Of a stretch of 22,181 bases of DNA, positions 3,067 to 19,767 are shown in pieces. The stretch's first letter is position 1, and each line of letters opens with the position of its first letter. The position numbers and the translations under genes were made by a program. The notes beneath the pieces are model-generated. The model had not been told where the DNA came from and searched no databases. It saw only the letters and a program-made list of their open reading frames with translations. The stretch covers positions 1 through 22,181 of the forward strand of contig JAOZPP010000053.1 in the NCBI GenBank assembly GCA_029932675.1, read 5' to 3'. This DNA comes from a bacterium (GTDB taxonomy: Bacteria > SM23-81 > DAOVCL01).

Positions 3067-3390
3067 CTATGCCATCCCTTTGCGTATCGTTCGCTTCAGG
3101 CGGTGTATCCGACGTCTTATCTCCTTTAGTTTCTTGTGGTCATGTGCTTCGAGGGCAGCATCGCGTTCAACCTTCAGCTCGCGGATCTGCTTCTTTATCT
3201 CGGCCTTGTTGATGCCCACAACCTTACGCTGCTTACGGGCAGCAATCCCCAAGGCCTTACAGAGAGCCAAGACCAACTGCTCCTTGTGCATCGTCTTATA
3301 ACCATGCAGGGCGTCGTGGTCAAGCCCTTCGGCGATCTCCCGCAGTTGGGCCACAGTTTTTTCCTTCAACTCCTCAAATGTGTAGTCCAC
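3067..3390 (-). CDS. Small Rho_N-domain protein (107 aa)
   Basis: Residues about 1-50 (FEELKEKTVAQLREIAEGL … KEQLVLALCKALGI) match the Rho termination factor N-terminal helical domain, a SAP-like fold found in nucleic-acid-associated proteins. The rest is a very basic helical or coiled-coil tail rich in K, R and E (DHKKLKEIRRRIHRLKRTIRKG). There is no Rho ATPase, so it is not the termination factor. I infer a small nucleic-acid-binding protein. I place the start at the GTG at 3390, which has AAGGAGG four bases upstream; the longer frame to 3486 begins with unrelated text and lacks such a site. Confidence 0.7.
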   Translation of the reverse strand: MDYTFEELKEKTVAQLREIAEGLDHDALHGYKTMHKEQLVLALCKALGIAARKQRKVVGINKAEIKKQIRELKVERDAALEAHDHKKLKEIRRRIHRLKRTIRKGMA

Positions 3391-3770
3391 AATGCCTCCT
3401 TCCCTTGTCTTGTTTTCCCTCTGGAGAGCCAAAATGACCTTCCGAGGTTGATTTGGCCCAAAGCCCCCAGAGAGAACAACGCTCACACTCTCTCTATATC
3501 AAAAAGATCGATGGCCTTAAACCATTCCTCTGAGATCTATAAGGGTGTTTGTCAACTCGAATTATTTTCATAGATCGCGAAGACCGTAGATTTTCACAGA
3601 TTACTAAGGTTCTTCAAGCATATGGGCTTTCACCTCTTGGCTAAAGGAGGGGTTTAATCTCAATTGGTATGACCTCTTTACTTTGAATGTCTTGTGAAAT
3701 CCTGTGGCTTCTTGGTACATAATCCGGGTCAGAGATAAGGTGGAGAACCTTCAACCGATGGATCGGCCCT
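3391..3770. other. Intergenic stretch with a near-duplicate 12-mer
   Basis: No gene is seen. ATTTTCATAGAT (3564-3575) and ATTTTCACAGAT (3590-3601) are the same word with one change, 26 bases apart. TGTCAA at 3550-3555 gives a perfect minus-strand TTGACA, but no -10 follows at 16-18 bases. Weak AGAGAG/CTCTCT complementarity lies near 3470-3500. A promoter for the Rho_N gene is expected here but was not pinned down. Confidence 0.45.
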
Positions 3771-4997
3771 CTAATGGAGGTCCTTTCTGGTATACATCTT
3801 CCCCCAGATGGGGTCATACTTGACCTCGATTAGCCCATCTCTCTCTAACTCATCAAGCACCCTATCGAGGTCCCAGGGGGAGAGTGGACTGAAGAGAGAG
3901 AGGTCATGGAGGGTGATCTCGACTGTTATCTTGGAAAGGATGTGATCCTTGATATCCATTGGCTCCACCAAGGGCAAAACAGGGGCCCTATCAAGATACT
4001 TCCTAAACGCTTCCTCGTCCTGGAAAATGGTGGCCAAGGCCCTCAGCAGCCTATGGGGGTCCTTCTCCAGCTCAAAGATGGTAAGGACAAAATCAGCCTG
4101 AGTCTGCCGCTTTTCTATCATCTGGGCAATCGTGATGAGATCCCCAACTTCTGCTCCTAAGAGGTTAATCCCCTCCTCGGCCAGATTAAGCATCTCCTTG
4201 AGCACATCTGTAACAGGCACTTCCTTTCCCTCCCAACGAAATATCGCCTGGAGGCCATACTTAGCTGCCCTCCATCTGTTTACTGAGTTCCAGAAGAACT
4301 CATCTGGATCATACTCCAGGGATTTCCTCTCCAGATTCCGGGAGAGCCCATACATCACCCCGGCGGTAAAGATGGTGCATTCGCACATCAGTCGCGGGTC
4401 CGATGTGCTATCTCCACATCTGAGCTCAATGGTAGGCTTGGAGGGAAGCTTGACTGATGTATCCTCCCCCCAGGATGGGCGGGCAAACCGGGGATGTTGG
4501 AGCCTTTGGGGCGTGGAACACCATTCAGCATTATGGGCAACCCGCAAACTTTTATACCCACCGACTTGAAACCTAGAGAGGGGACTATTGCACATCAAAG
4601 CTACAAAGCAAGGGACGTACTTCATCATTTGGTTGGTCAATGCAGTGGCCGCAGGATAGTCATAGACAGTGCCCACATGGATGTGAGATCCGATGGGCAT
4701 CTCCTCCGTTGGTCTTGCCCCTAAGGGGAGGATGAGATAATTTCTCTTGCCAGCGACCTTTTTCGCCTGGCGAAGGAAGGTCTGATTCCTCTCCAAGAGC
4801 TCATCCCAGTTTTTAATGATTCCTAATCTAGCCTCCAAAAGGTCCAGGTCTATCCCTACCCTTGACCAGGGGAGTAAGGTCCTCAAATCATTGGCTAATC
4901 TGGTGATCTCCTTCTCCCCAGCGGATTCCATCGTCTCTTGAAGAAGGGCCATCTCCCAATCATAGCCCATTGTCAATGGATGAAAGATACTTTCCAA
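3771..4997 (-). CDS. GCS2-family carboxylate-amine ligase (YbdK/EgtA-like)
   Basis: The protein has the layout of glutamate-cysteine ligase type 2 proteins, which join a carboxylate to an amine using ATP. Visible blocks are the N-terminal GYDWEMAL (family G-x-E-x-E), GSHIHVGT for the family's H-V-H-V-G, and PTIELRCGDS for T-I-E-x-R-x-x-D-S. A C-terminal extension of about 45 residues looks like a winged helix (SPWDLDRVLDELERDGLIEV), which is unusual for the family. I chose a TTG start at 4997, one base after the upstream stop. AAAGGGG in the upstream gene's last codons serves as its ribosome site, and translation then begins just before the conserved block. An ATG at 4970 is the alternative. 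The substrate is not predictable. Confidence 0.75.
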   Translation of the reverse strand: MESIFHPLTMGYDWEMALLQETMESAGEKEITRLANDLRTLLPWSRVGIDLDLLEARLGIIKNWDELLERNQTFLRQAKKVAGKRNYLILPLGARPTEEMPIGSHIHVGTVYDYPAATALTNQMMKYVPCFVALMCNSPLSRFQVGGYKSLRVAHNAEWCSTPQRLQHPRFARPSWGEDTSVKLPSKPTIELRCGDSTSDPRLMCECTIFTAGVMYGLSRNLERKSLEYDPDEFFWNSVNRWRAAKYGLQAIFRWEGKEVPVTDVLKEMLNLAEEGINLLGAEVGDLITIAQMIEKRQTQADFVLTIFELEKDPHRLLRALATIFQDEEAFRKYLDRAPVLPLVEPMDIKDHILSKITVEITLHDLSLFSPLSPWDLDRVLDELERDGLIEVKYDPIWGKMYTRKDLH

Positions 4998-4998
4998 T

Positions 4999-6387
4999 TT
5001 AGTCCCCTTTGAGTTCGCAAGCCAGGAATTCCTCCCCCTGATTAAACGAGGCACCGACCAAGGAGAATCCCCTTGGTATAGTTAAAGAGTTTTGAAACAC
5101 CTTTCCCACCTCAGGATAAATTCTGGGATTCAAATCCAACTTTTCTCTCCTCCCATCAGTAGAGATAGTTACTGAACATCTTTTATACTTCTTGGAGGTG
5201 CGGAGGATTACGGCTAAGGGTAAACCCACCGATGAGGGCTCACCCAGAGAGAGGAGGAGAAGGCTTTCTTGGTTGAGATCGTAAGCATCTGCTAAAGCAA
5301 AGAGAACTCCATAGGAAGCCTTTGCTTCTTTCCTCAATTTCTGGGGGGAGTGGGAGAGGAAGAGTCTGGGAGAGCGGCTATCGATACCCAACCAAACAAA
5401 GCTTACTTTCCGGGGATGAAAGAGGATGGCCAAACCGTCTCCCTTTCTTTCGTTGGTCAGAAGAACGAAACCTGGGGCGATGGACGACCACTTCTCCTTC
5501 CAGCCCCATCCTTCATCCTCCCACCTCCCCTTCCAGGCTGGCTTATGATACCTGGCGCGGACGAGCCCCTCCTTAGTGGGAACAAAGAAGAGGTTGTGGA
5601 AATTTGCCTCCCCCCCCATAGCGAAGAAGATCTTGGGACAATACTCAATGGAGATCTTCTCCCCTTTCTTTTTCTTCTTGTCCTTCTCTTTCCCTTTATA
5701 TTTGAACTGGGAAACCTGATAGACTATGGGAAGATCAGGTTCTATGCTTATTCCCTTTTTAGCCTCTAATCCCTCCTCTTTTTCAAAAGAAAAGCGATAG
5801 TTAAAGGTGGGTTGACGCTTACTTCCCTCCCTCTTGAAGTCTGCGTTCCACAGCTCATCAGGCTTCTCCATCCCGGAGGTTGATTCCTCCACCCCCCCCA
5901 GTTCTACCCACCCTTCCCGACCATAATTGCCCGTCCCGCATAGCTGGTTCTGACCTTTCCTCTTGGTCCACAACTCCCAGAGTCTGGCCCCATAGTGAGG
6001 GCCTATCACTGCTTTGAGAAAGGGGTTCTCTAAGATGTCCTCTTTAAGCCCGTCGAGATTAACATCTTGGGAGTATAAAAGGGCATGCTCAGGAGGGGAC
6101 TCCTCAACCCTTTGTGAGGGGGAAGGGGGGATGAGCGCCCTAATTACCTCTTTGCTCTCCTGAGGATCCAAAACCAAGCTATCCCCCGGTTTGATCTCCC
6201 AAGGAAGGAGGCATTGCCGCAAGATCCTTGCCCTTTTCCCCTTTATCCCCTTAGGCAGTCGGAAGATCTTTCTGGCCGCTCCCTTCACCTTTACCAGGCA
6301 TTCCACTTGGGAATACTGAAGGCCCTGTTTGTCCCAATATTCCCCTTTCCTTTCTACCTCTAAGACCTTTACCAACAGCCTCTGCAT
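4999..6387 (-). CDS. Unrecognised 462-aa protein, possible galactose-mutarotase-like fold
   Basis: I do not firmly recognise this protein. An N-terminal part of about 100 residues looks like a small beta domain (KVKGAARKIFRLP, PGDSLVLDP). From about residue 115 the text NPFLKAVIGPHYGARLWELW … GWVELGGVEES … PDELWNADF resembles galactose-mutarotase or aldose-epimerase-like proteins, which bind sugars in a beta-supersandwich. Later strands (APGFVLLTN, GLAILFHP) fit such a fold. A lysine-rich insert (KGKEKDKKKKKGEK) at about 230-245 is probably an exposed loop. There is no signal peptide. It starts 54 bases after cobO with GGAGG five bases before the ATG, and its last codons supply the ribosome site for the downstream ligase. 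The pair is probably co-expressed. The fold call is inference. Confidence 0.5.
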   Translation of the reverse strand: MQRLLVKVLEVERKGEYWDKQGLQYSQVECLVKVKGAARKIFRLPKGIKGKRARILRQCLLPWEIKPGDSLVLDPQESKEVIRALIPPSPSQRVEESPPEHALLYSQDVNLDGLKEDILENPFLKAVIGPHYGARLWELWTKRKGQNQLCGTGNYGREGWVELGGVEESTSGMEKPDELWNADFKREGSKRQPTFNYRFSFEKEEGLEAKKGISIEPDLPIVYQVSQFKYKGKEKDKKKKKGEKISIEYCPKIFFAMGGEANFHNLFFVPTKEGLVRARYHKPAWKGRWEDEGWGWKEKWSSIAPGFVLLTNERKGDGLAILFHPRKVSFVWLGIDSRSPRLFLSHSPQKLRKEAKASYGVLFALADAYDLNQESLLLLSLGEPSSVGLPLAVILRTSKKYKRCSVTISTDGRREKLDLNPRIYPEVGKVFQNSLTIPRGFSLVGASFNQGEEFLACELKGD

Positions 6388-6441: not shown

Positions 6442-6975
6442 TTAGTACTCGATCCCCTCCCTAGCTTGGATCCCTTTTTGGAAATGATGTTTTACCTCCT
6501 TCATCTCCGTGACCAGGTCGGCAAGTTCGATCACCTCCTGCGCCGCATACCTTCCGGTAAGGACGAGTTCCACCTCTGGAGGCTTTCCTTTTATCAAATC
6601 AAGGAGTTCAGATAAGCCGATAAGTCCATAGTCAACGGCTACATTTATCTCGTCCAAGCAAACCATATCATAGCTTGCCCCCTGGACGACCTGCTTGGCC
6701 CGCTCAAACCCCTTTCGGGCCAGCTCCCGATCCTTTGGCGAGGGATTACCCCTTTCAACAAAAGTAGGTAGGCCATACTGTTCGATTTCCACTCCGGGGA
6801 CCTTTTCTGTGGCCTTCAGCTCGCCGTAGTTTATCTGCCCCTTCATAAACTGGATCACGATCACCCTCTGTCCATGGCCAGCAGCCCTTAAGGCCTGACC
6901 AAGGGCAGCGGTCGTCTTCCCCTTCCCATTCCCGGTATAGACCTGAACTGTCCCTATCTTCCCCTGAGGCTGCAT
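6442..6975 (-). CDS. cobO: Corrinoid adenosyltransferase (CobO/BtuR family)
   Basis: The 177-residue length is normal for the family. It transfers the adenosyl group of ATP to Co(I) corrinoid, making adenosylcobalamin or its a,c-diamide precursor. The P-loop GNGKGKTT (15-22) follows the typical VQVYTGNG strand. Other family blocks are VIVIQFMKG, MVCLDEIN and LVLTGR, then the closing EVKHHFQKGIQAREGIEY. The start overlaps the end of birA by 22 bases, so the two are likely translationally coupled. No other cobalamin genes lie in the window, so a salvage role is as likely as de novo synthesis. Confidence 0.95.
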   Translation of the reverse strand: MQPQGKIGTVQVYTGNGKGKTTAALGQALRAAGHGQRVIVIQFMKGQINYGELKATEKVPGVEIEQYGLPTFVERGNPSPKDRELARKGFERAKQVVQGASYDMVCLDEINVAVDYGLIGLSELLDLIKGKPPEVELVLTGRYAAQEVIELADLVTEMKEVKHHFQKGIQAREGIEY

Positions 6976-14497: not shown

Positions 14498-14607
14498 GCA
14501 TTCTTAGGGGTAGTCACCAGGGTCCAAATTTATGGAAGGTATAGCCCTGTGACTTGGCTAATTGGCAATCACCGAATTTGCTCTTTTGGCTGAAAGGGAT
14601 CAAAGTT

Positions 14608-15381
14608 GTGAATCCGTTTTTCTTTATTGGAAAGGAAATTATAAAGTTTTCCTTCCACTTGGGGAGGATGGTCCACCTGTTGTGGGAGATGGTGAAGGCC
14701 CTTCCCGATTTTCGCACCTATTCTAAACCCTTGATCAAACAGATGCTGGTCATCGGAAACAGATCCTTTACCATTATCTTCTTCATCTCCATCTTGGCCG
14801 GGATGACCGTCTCGGTGCAGACGGCCTACAACCTGGAAAGCTATGCCCCCCTTTACCTTATGGGGAGCACCATGGAGAAGACCATCCTTCTGGAATTTGG
14901 CCCCCTGCTTGCTGCCTTTATCTTGGTGGGCAGGGTGGGAGCTACAATTGCCGCTGAGTTAGGGACGATGCGGGTCACCGAGCAGATAGATGCCCTGGAA
15001 TCCTTGGCCTTCAACCCGATCTCCTACCTAGTCCTCCCCCGGGTGATAGCGGGGATGATTATGGTTCCAGTGCTGACCATCTTTGCCGATGCCATTGGAA
15101 TAATAGCGGGTTGGTTAACCTCTATAGCGAAGACCAATGTTACTACCCATCAGTTCTTTTACGGCTTTAAATCGGTATACCAAACTTTTGATCTCAATTT
15201 CGGCTTAATAAAGGCCGTCTTCTTCGGCCTGACCATTACATTTGTTAGCTCTTATGAAGGATTTTATGCCCGCCAAGGGGCGGAAGGGGTTGGCAAAGCT
15301 ACTACCAGCTCAGTGGTCATCGCCTCCATCATCATTCTGGTTTTGGACTATTTCTGGGCAACCACTCTTTTGGGATTCTAA
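14608..15381 (+). CDS. mlaE: MlaE-family ABC permease, lipid transport
   Basis: This 257-residue inner-membrane permease belongs to the MlaE/DUF140 family. With MlaF and MlaD it moves phospholipids between inner and outer membranes. The family core is plain: LLEFGPLLAAFILVGRVGATIAAELGTM (as overlapping family blocks), then RVTEQIDALES, NPISYLVLPR and the terminal helix after GKATTSSVV. About five hydrophobic segments are visible. The open frame extends to 14554, but I chose the GTG at 14608, which has AAAGGGA eight bases upstream and begins at the amphipathic FFFIGKEIIKF helix typical of the family. The next gene starts two bases after its stop. Confidence 0.93.
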   Translation: MNPFFFIGKEIIKFSFHLGRMVHLLWEMVKALPDFRTYSKPLIKQMLVIGNRSFTIIFFISILAGMTVSVQTAYNLESYAPLYLMGSTMEKTILLEFGPLLAAFILVGRVGATIAAELGTMRVTEQIDALESLAFNPISYLVLPRVIAGMIMVPVLTIFADAIGIIAGWLTSIAKTNVTTHQFFYGFKSVYQTFDLNFGLIKAVFFGLTITFVSSYEGFYARQGAEGVGKATTSSVVIASIIILVLDYFWATTLLGF

Positions 15382-15383
15382 CC

Positions 15384-16136
15384 TTGATAGAACTAAAGGG
15401 CTTGACGAAAAGCTTCGGGGACCTCAAGGTACTCAGGGGGGTTGATCTAAAGATCGGTAGGGGGGAGACAGTAGGCATAATCGGGGAGAGTGGCTGTGGG
15501 AAGAGTGTTCTCTTAAAGATGATCATTGGCCTTCTCAAGCCAGACTCCGGTTCAGTCTTCCTTGATGGTCAGGATTTAACTAAGATAAAATATAAGGAGT
15601 TGGTGGAGATAAGGAAAAGGTTTGGCATGGTCTTTCAGGGCTCCGCCCTCTTTGATTCCCTTACTGTGGAAGAAAATGTAGGCCTGGGCCTGCGTCGACA
15701 TACAAAGCTCTCTGAAGGGGAAATAAGAAAGAAAATAAAGTGGTGTTTGGACCATGTGGGGTTGGAAGGTGTAGAGGACAAATTCCCCGCCCAGCTCTCC
15801 GGGGGAATGAAGAAGAGGGTGGCCTTTGCCAGGGCCATAGCTATGGATCCTCAATACCTTCTTTATGACGAGCCTACTACCGGGCTCGACCCCGTCACCG
15901 CCAGAAAGATAAACCAGCTTATGGGCTATCTTAACCGGAAACTATCGGTTACTTCTGTCATCGTCACCCATAACATAATTGCAGTCTCCCGGATAGCCGA
16001 TAGGGTGGCTATGCTCCACCGCGGGGTGATTAGGTTTGAGGGGAGTTCAGAGGAGCTAATCGGAACGGAAGATCCAGTAGTAAGACAATTTGTGGATAGT
16101 TCGAAGTATGGAAGGGAGGGATATGAAACGGTTTGA
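15384..16136 (+). CDS. mlaF: MlaF-family ABC transporter ATPase
   Basis: The 250-residue cytoplasmic ATPase powers the Mla permease. Walker A is GESGCGKS (34-41), the Q-loop is at Q85 in VFQGSALF, the signature is LSGGM (138-142), Walker B is LLYDEP (159-164), and the switch His is H196 in VTHN. VFQGSALFDSLTV is the usual MlaF text. The start is TTG at 15384, two bases after mlaE, with only a weak site upstream, so translation is probably coupled. It overlaps mlaD by 14 bases. Confidence 0.95.
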   Translation: MIELKGLTKSFGDLKVLRGVDLKIGRGETVGIIGESGCGKSVLLKMIIGLLKPDSGSVFLDGQDLTKIKYKELVEIRKRFGMVFQGSALFDSLTVEENVGLGLRRHTKLSEGEIRKKIKWCLDHVGLEGVEDKFPAQLSGGMKKRVAFARAIAMDPQYLLYDEPTTGLDPVTARKINQLMGYLNRKLSVTSVIVTHNIIAVSRIADRVAMLHRGVIRFEGSSEELIGTEDPVVRQFVDSSKYGREGYETV

Positions 16137-16968
16137 GTTAGAGACGAAGGTTGGTATGGCCATCATCTTCGCCTTTCTTCTATTCCTTCTGGGAGATATG
16201 TTCCTACGCGGTGTATCGATAGGAGGGCGTGGGTATAGGTTGATCACCAAGCTGAGAGATGTGGCCGGACTGATGCAAGGGGATAGGGTGACTGTAATGG
16301 GGATGGGGGTGGGGAAGGTGGGAAAGATGCGCTTGGAGGGGGAGGAGGTGGTGGTCCCGTTGCACATCGACAATTCCGATCTTCGACTCCCCTTAGACTC
16401 TATTGCCAAACTGAGGAGCTCCAGCCTTTTTGGGAGGAAGGAGATAGCTATCGTTCCTGGGAAAAGCTCTCAAACCCTCACAGATGGGGATTATATCGCT
16501 GGAATATATGAATCTCCCCTCTCTGCAGTGACCTCCACAATAGGCCCAATTGGAGAGGACCTGATGGACCTTTTGGAAAGGTTAAGGCTGATATTCAGTC
16601 AAGAGGCTCGAAAAAACATTCAGGGAAGCCTCAGCGATCTGAGGGTTTTTACCCAAAAGATGCGGGAAAATGGAGAGACCTTAGACACCCTATTGGCCCA
16701 TCTGGCCAGTTCATCGGCTGGCCTAAAGGGAGAGGAAATCGAAGGGGTTTTAAGCTCCTTAAGAGAGGCAACCAACAACTTGGATCAACTCATAGCTTCT
16801 TTACAGGAGATAACAGAGAGGATGAAAAGGGGAAGGGGAACCTTGGGAAAGCTCTCTCAGGATGAAGCCCTATACGAGAACCTGAAGAACCTCAGCCAGG
16901 ACTTGGACAGTTTAGTGAGGGACGTCAAACAGAACCCGAAGAAGTATTTCAAGTTTAGCGTCTTCTGA
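16123..16968 (+). CDS. mlaD: MlaD-family MCE-domain lipid-binding protein
   Basis: The 281-residue protein has one N-terminal membrane anchor (about 7-28) and a periplasmic MCE domain (about 35-125: YRLITKLRDVAGLMQGDRVTV … LRSSSLFGRKEIAIVPG … LTDGDYI). A long helical tail with heptad character follows and ends in the NPKKYFKFSVF motif common in MlaD proteins of non-enteric bacteria. MCE hexamers form the lipid channel above MlaE. I chose the ATG at 16123 with GGGAGGG just upstream, overlapping mlaF. No mlaC- or mlaB-type gene follows, unlike in E. coli. Confidence 0.92.
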   Translation: MKRFELETKVGMAIIFAFLLFLLGDMFLRGVSIGGRGYRLITKLRDVAGLMQGDRVTVMGMGVGKVGKMRLEGEEVVVPLHIDNSDLRLPLDSIAKLRSSSLFGRKEIAIVPGKSSQTLTDGDYIAGIYESPLSAVTSTIGPIGEDLMDLLERLRLIFSQEARKNIQGSLSDLRVFTQKMRENGETLDTLLAHLASSSAGLKGEEIEGVLSSLREATNNLDQLIASLQEITERMKRGRGTLGKLSQDEALYENLKNLSQDLDSLVRDVKQNPKKYFKFSVF

Positions 16969-18888: not shown

Positions 18889-19767
18889 ATGGCAAGGCTA
18901 ACCAGAAGGGGATTTCTCAGGTGGGGCACATTTGCTGCTCCCTTCCTCTTCTTCTGGGGGAAGATACCTTCCCTTTTTGCTGGAGTATGGGAGAGGAGTA
19001 GATCGGTAAACTATTGGCAAGGAAAAAGCTTCCATCAGACAAACCTAAAAGTGGTGAAAGCTGGTCTGTTGAGGGCGAAGATCAACGGCAATTGGCAGGA
19101 GTTTCAGCCCCGGGAGCTGAGCCCTGAATTTATAGACTGGAATCTTAAGGCTAGGTTGGAGACGATTGAGGCCCTCAAGAAGGGGGGACCTCCTTCCTTG
19201 GCCGGACCGCATAGCGCTGCGGTGGCCACCTATGGGGGAGGGAGACGTGACTCAAGCTTCACAGTGAACAACGCCATTAAAGGTATAGGATTTGTCCCCA
19301 AACCAGAGAGGATTGGAGCAAAGATAAGAGAACTCAAGGCAAACTTCGATGCTCCAATGCCGCAGAAGCTGGAGATCCTCTCCGCCGGTTATCGGGACAG
19401 GTCCCTCTGGGATAGGACAAAGCAGGTTTCTTTAGAGCTGTATACGACTCCCCGATTTGAGACCCATACCTTCCTCAATTTGATGGCTAACCCCGTGGCT
19501 TCGGTTGTCTTCTTGGACTATCCCAGCTATGAGTTACGCACCTTGGTGAGAATGGTCCATCCGGAGGATAAATCCATCAGCGAGGAGGAAAGGGAGATAC
19601 TGGAGTATATCAACTTAGTCCATAGCTTCTTCCATGGCAGGTTTGAGGAGAAGTTTATCGCTATGATCTTCTATCTGATCGAGGAATTCAACAATACTCC
19701 GGGAAGTAAAGAGGGAATGGGGAGAAGGGTCGTTCCCCCTTTAGAGTTTGTCCCCTCGGGAAGGTAG
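18889..19767 (+). CDS. Tat-exported protein of unknown function (292 aa)
   Basis: I do not recognise the mature domain. The N-terminus is a clear twin-arginine signal, TRRGFLRWG followed by a hydrophobic stretch (FAAPFLFFWGKIPSLFAG), so the protein is probably exported folded, perhaps with a cofactor or partner. The mature part shows ELYTTPRFETHTFLNLMANP and a strand SVVFLDYPSYELRTLVRMVHP, then a helical, acidic C-terminal segment (SISEEEREILEYINLVHSFFHG). No Cys pairs, CxxC, haem or iron-sulfur motifs are seen. GGAGGAGGT sits just before the ATG. It ends three bases before recJ, so the two are co-transcribed, although one product acts outside and the other inside the cell. Confidence 0.65.
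   Translation: MARLTRRGFLRWGTFAAPFLFFWGKIPSLFAGVWERSRSVNYWQGKSFHQTNLKVVKAGLLRAKINGNWQEFQPRELSPEFIDWNLKARLETIEALKKGGPPSLAGPHSAAVATYGGGRRDSSFTVNNAIKGIGFVPKPERIGAKIRELKANFDAPMPQKLEILSAGYRDRSLWDRTKQVSLELYTTPRFETHTFLNLMANPVASVVFLDYPSYELRTLVRMVHPEDKSISEEEREILEYINLVHSFFHGRFEEKFIAMIFYLIEEFNNTPGSKEGMGRRVVPPLEFVPSGR

Follow-up and report, generated by a model that had tools for sequence, protein, structure and literature searches.

A YbdK/GCS2-like carboxylate-amine ligase linked to a galactose-mutarotase-fold protein in several candidate phyla

The products of amidoligases with the glutamine synthetase (GS) fold include glutamine, glutathione precursors and Pup conjugates, and ATP-dependent amide formation is the established chemistry of the superfamily. 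The described systems closest to the ligase analysed here are YbdK/GCS2 (PF04107; PDB 1R8G and 1TT4) and plant glutamate-cysteine ligase (GCL; 2GWC), followed by PafA and Dop of the pupylation pathway, which share the carboxylate-amine ligase fold. Motifs of the superfamily are GhExE in strand 1, acidic residues in strands 2 and 3, [HD]x[NH] in strand 4 and Ex[RK]x2D in strand 6, together with an Arg in strand 5 and another Arg in the preceding loop (PMC2588565). Other families of GS-fold amidoligases likewise have a companion, either a fused transglutaminase or GATase or Aig2 neighbours; these partners are of hydrolase or cyclotransferase type, and a mutarotase-like partner is not mentioned there (PMC2588565).

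In the window (the whole stretch of DNA analysed, 22,181 nt), a ligase gene of this superfamily lies directly behind a gene for a protein with a galactose-mutarotase-like core, referred to as the partner. We read the pair as a two-subunit amidoligase with a predicted substrate-binding partner, acting on a substrate that is not glutamate plus cysteine, and assign this reading a probability of about 0.5. The earlier note on this DNA knew of no pathway with these two proteins, and a search of the open-access literature likewise yielded no published description of the pair.

Gene junction and linkage across genomes

Both genes are located on the minus strand. The partner gene (4999..6387, 462 aa) starts with ATG at 6387 and ends with TAA at 5001-4999, and the ligase gene (3771..4997, 408 aa, TAG included) starts with TTG at 4997-4995. 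A single A (4998) separates the partner TAA from this TTG, which is the one-base distance that the earlier note had described. The note had also proposed that the last codons of the upstream gene serve as ribosome site. At the junction (4995..5010), the Shine-Dalgarno-like AAAGGGGA was indeed found at approximately 5010-5003 within the final codons of the partner (K-G-D-stop), ending 5-6 nt upstream of the TTG; it contains AAGGGG and is a partial match only to a Shine-Dalgarno sequence. Although the longest ligase ORF could open at GTG 5054, the TTG is preferred because the N-termini of relatives align with it.

Equivalents of this junction occur in the relatives. At 14 of 14 independent loci, including one that is truncated at the contig start and still has the partner tail, the ligase start ranges from an 8-nt overlap with the partner to a position 3 nt past its stop (-8 to +3). 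The partner adjoins the ligase in unchanged order at every close ligase relative having upstream sequence; at locus L023 (genome G400), which is cut by a contig edge, the partner tail is still visible. Across four groups, positional conservation is limited to these two genes. The ligase and partner trees have the same topology, and their pairwise distances correlate at 0.97.

Within a sample of 386 genomes, close ligase relatives were found in three genomes besides that of the window (G072, G006 and G293), and a profile scan over 84,980 species genomes yielded ten loci. In two phyla searched in full, the ligase is present in 8 of 20 and 4 of 17 genomes, one of the four being a fragment. Organisms bearing the pair include Candidatus Effluviviaceae, Candidatus Eisenbacteria, Candidatus Cloacimonadota and UBP14. 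Full-length partners are confined to ligase-bearing genomes (4/386, 8/20 and 3/17). Across the 386 genomes and the two full phyla, the sole exception to a both-or-neither distribution is genome G414, with a C-terminal ligase fragment that begins at a contig edge. The identical sets of 8 out of 20 genomes in the phylum of G072 would arise by chance in 1 of 125,970 cases, a rough guide given that related genomes are non-independent. Of the window's phylum, four genomes were covered, and the pair is patchy there, since both genes are absent from the other three. The loci of distant YbdK-type ligases (L006-L017) contain no partner.

Synteny and co-occurrence rule out a chance adjacency of the two genes. 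The fixed pair postulated in the earlier note, for which conservation beyond this genome was the suggested check, was thus recovered in several candidate phyla. In three close pairs, the ligase has a dN/dS of 0.09-0.19 and the partner one of 0.17-0.37, which places both under purifying selection. Pattern scans of genome and viral contigs with single sequences gave no match. The same was true for a profile scan of viral contigs, for which the partner profile is too divergent, and for a tblastn search of plasmids with the partner as query. Neither protein matched libraries of defence and phage proteins. A scan for promoters and terminators gave no more signals than shuffled sequences.

Ligase fold, active-site motifs and C-terminal tail

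The AlphaFold model of the ligase (pLDDT 86) shows the GCS/glutamine synthetase fold and matches YbdK with a Z score of 34 over 313 residues, followed by plant GCL (Z 29), E. coli GCL (Z 22) and Dop/PafA (Z 16-21). ATP-dependent amide formation, as claimed in the earlier note, is thus predicted from fold and motifs. The window ligase scores 21.9 bits against Pfam GCS2 (PF04107), just above the gathering score of 21, and 11 of 11 relatives match this model as well. Against TIGR02050, which represents the YbdK subfamily, it reaches 51.9 bits, which is below the curated cut-off of 176.4.

As in YbdK/GCS2, the ligase features HxH, ExRxxD, the D/E residues of strands 2-3 and an NR motif. H105/H107 (HxH), E191/R193/D196 (ExRxxD) and D50/E55 are invariant in 14 of 14 ligases, and so is the loop residue R152. 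The strand-1 signature differs: all 14 ligases carry GhDWE, whereas GhExE was found in nine of nine YbdK-type comparators. In strand 5, 12 of the 14 sequences have Lys and the other two have Arg. Judged from its sequence, the ligase is not a standard GCS2/YbdK member, though it is expected to work like one; despite passing the Pfam GCS2 cut-off, it is placed outside this group because of the deviating strand-1 signature. GhDWE and the strand-5 Lys could mean an altered activity.

The number of residues from one motif to the next hardly varies inside the ligase family and differs from that of the nine YbdK-type sequences. The spacing is 49 versus 75 residues between E55 and H105 and 38 versus 54 residues between R152 and E191, and two segments (26 and 16 residues) are absent at fixed places relative to the YbdK types. 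N240 is followed by 168-180 residues up to the C-terminus, compared to 88-104 in the YbdK types. The family forms a clade apart from the YbdK types with a support of 100/100 and branch lengths of 1.5 and 2.3, and the constant presence of the partner gene is a further difference from YbdK/GCS2.

These data bear on the reading that the ligase is a small-molecule ligase for gamma-glutamyl or similar amino-acid products, with a purely regulatory or stabilising partner. By analogy, animal glutamate-cysteine ligase has a modifier subunit. The nearest folds are those of YbdK and glutamate-cysteine ligases, the majority of active-site motifs is retained and the pair sits among housekeeping genes, all in favour of such an enzyme. 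However, two YbdK segments are missing and the family is distant from YbdK. In addition, glutathione synthetase (PF02955) was found in 0 of 12 genomes, nine of them with the pair, while control genomes were positive; a glutathione role for the ligase is therefore unsupported. We give the gamma-glutamyl reading a minor, though real, chance.

In structural comparison, Dop and PafA come directly behind the GCLs, and the absent segments could open the ligase site. By analogy, a pupylation-like modification can be considered, in which the ligase would link the carboxylate of a peptide or protein to lysines of a target. It appears quite improbable: the strand-6 motif is ExRxxD in 14 of 14 ligases instead of the PafA-type [QH]x4D (PMC2588565), and among ORFs of at least 90 aa no Pup-like gene was seen adjacent to the pair, the only small conserved ones there being HU and NfeD in one phylum. 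Unlike PafA/Dop, the ligase has a mutarotase-fold partner. The partner C-termini are variable, and the Shine-Dalgarno sequence overlaps the codons of their common -LEA ending. A role of the partner itself as a Pup-like tag is ruled out, as its C-termini vary and overlap this signal.

About 70-80 extra C-terminal residues, absent from YbdK-type ligases, include a winged-helix-like tail (3774..3959, minus strand, approximately residues 347-408). According to DSSP on the model, it consists of helices 349-356, 363-367 and 374-386 and strands 390-395 and 399-404. Of the winged-helix-like tail proposed in the earlier note, an additional C-terminal domain with helix-helix-helix-strand-strand order stands, and the winged-helix assignment is based on the secondary structure of the model together with weak profile matches (E 0.07 or worse), mostly to winged-helix proteins. 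Together with the GhDWE and Lys substitutions, such a tail would fit a degenerate, non-catalytic sensor that binds DNA through it. This is extremely unlikely, given that the other catalytic residues are invariant across deep divergence, the dN/dS of the ligase is low and conservation is lower in the tail than in the catalytic core.

Partner fold and the DxDxDGxxE motif

The partner model (pLDDT 75, with values below 50 at residues 88-103, 132-152 and 285-296) comprises an N-terminal beta-rich domain (approximately 1-86), which had no significant sequence match, and a galactose-mutarotase-like core (approximately 100-447). The core has the beta-supersandwich of galactose mutarotases and aldose-1-epimerases, with Z scores of 15-16 over 200-243 residues (best 16.0 over 243 residues). 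The periplasmic domain of YidC was also among the Foldseek matches. In the model, the partner thus does not fold into an unrelated known family.

The DxDxDGxxE motif and the first core strand are encoded at 5941..6093 (minus strand, approximately residues 99-149). This stretch is common to the C-terminal domains of GH57 enzymes (AmyA-gluTrfs_C, PF09095; hhalign probability 96.5% over 49 columns), and comparison to PDB 1k1w yielded E=4e-4. The PF09095 score of the partner is 15.4 bits over 40 residues, below the gathering score of 22. Other genome matches to the partner profile are short and lie within ORFs of mostly about 570-800 aa, two of which were read and resemble GH57 enzymes. The partner differs from these domains and from mutarotases in being a stand-alone protein with a separate N-terminal domain.

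Galactose mutarotase uses catalytic His and Glu residues, which are H96, H170 and E304 in GalM of L. lactis. Among the partner sequences no His is invariant, and within the core, invariant acidic residues are confined to the DxDxDGxxE loop. Mutarotase chemistry is therefore unlikely, and the partner is probably not a mutarotase. Regarding the sugar-binding-like fold suggested in the earlier note, the galactose-mutarotase-like domain is supported by the model, whereas the catalytic residues of mutarotases are not conserved.

A fold that also occurs in carbohydrate-active enzymes and a stretch in common with the C-terminal domains of GH57 enzymes would suit carbohydrate amidation. In this reading, the partner binds a saccharide containing uronic acid, whose carboxylate the ligase joins to an amine or amino acid. 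However, the same fold is present in YidC, a protein with no role as a sugar enzyme, and in no phylum does a glycan gene cluster recur beside the pair, so that we regard this specific reading as unlikely.

Proposed function and neighbouring genes

In the preferred reading, ligase and partner form one functional unit, a two-subunit amidoligase whose subunits would be in physical contact. The ligase would follow the mechanism of the GS fold, with phosphorylation of a carboxylate by ATP and subsequent attack of an amine to yield the amide. The partner would be a cytoplasmic, non-catalytic subunit, the mutarotase-like beta-supersandwich of which binds and presents the substrate or lends allosteric support to the ligase. 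As the pairing is fixed, the partner would be needed for the reaction. The winged-helix-like tail probably contacts the partner or the target. Because the two YbdK-type segments are missing, we infer a different substrate, probably not glutamate plus cysteine; it may be a larger molecule, e.g. a saccharide, peptide or protein. More tentative, and in our view possible rather than probable, is the narrower proposal of a two-component amidoligase of candidate phyla with a GhDWE-type catalytic site that conjugates a macromolecular or saccharide carboxylate, recognised through a mutarotase-fold subunit.

A deeply conserved branch with altered signature residues and a seemingly obligatory mutarotase-fold partner would point to an amide-forming reaction of uncultured phyla that has so far escaped recognition. 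Both proteins are moderate in size and obvious membrane segments are absent, which makes the pair directly testable in E. coli.

The neighbours of the pair vary by phylum. In the window, a gene for the corrinoid adenosyltransferase CobO/BtuR (6442..6975, minus strand, assigned by Pfam) lies upstream, 54 nt before the partner, and a BirA-like gene is also located upstream on the same strand; CobO/BtuR is not linked to the pair in other phyla. Elsewhere, for example, a lamin-tail gene is found. No third gene recurs with the pair across phyla, and the co-occurring glycan or peptide genes that the earlier note suggested looking for were not recurrent.

Some neighbourhoods are conserved locally. 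In the phylum of G072 (locus L040, 8370-12526), LptD and HU-type DNA-binding genes are located upstream and NfeD/SPFH genes downstream, of which HU and NfeD/SPFH are conserved. In UBP14-like genomes (L041, 10431-16243; L048, 429-6191), three large conserved genes lie beside the pair; two carry DUF3857, one of them also with a transglutaminase core. A gene reading as ribosomal protein S7 is another neighbour of the pair, along with DUF3857/transglutaminase-like genes.

Other genes of the window include one for a small Rho_N-domain protein downstream of the ligase (3067-3402, minus strand). A 292 aa ORF without Pfam or PHROG match (18889-19767, plus strand) is situated between genes of the YbjQ family and a RecJ-like DHH protein. 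At 14554-16968 (plus strand), consecutive genes for an MlaE permease, an ABC ATPase and MlaD form a lipid-transport (Mla) operon.
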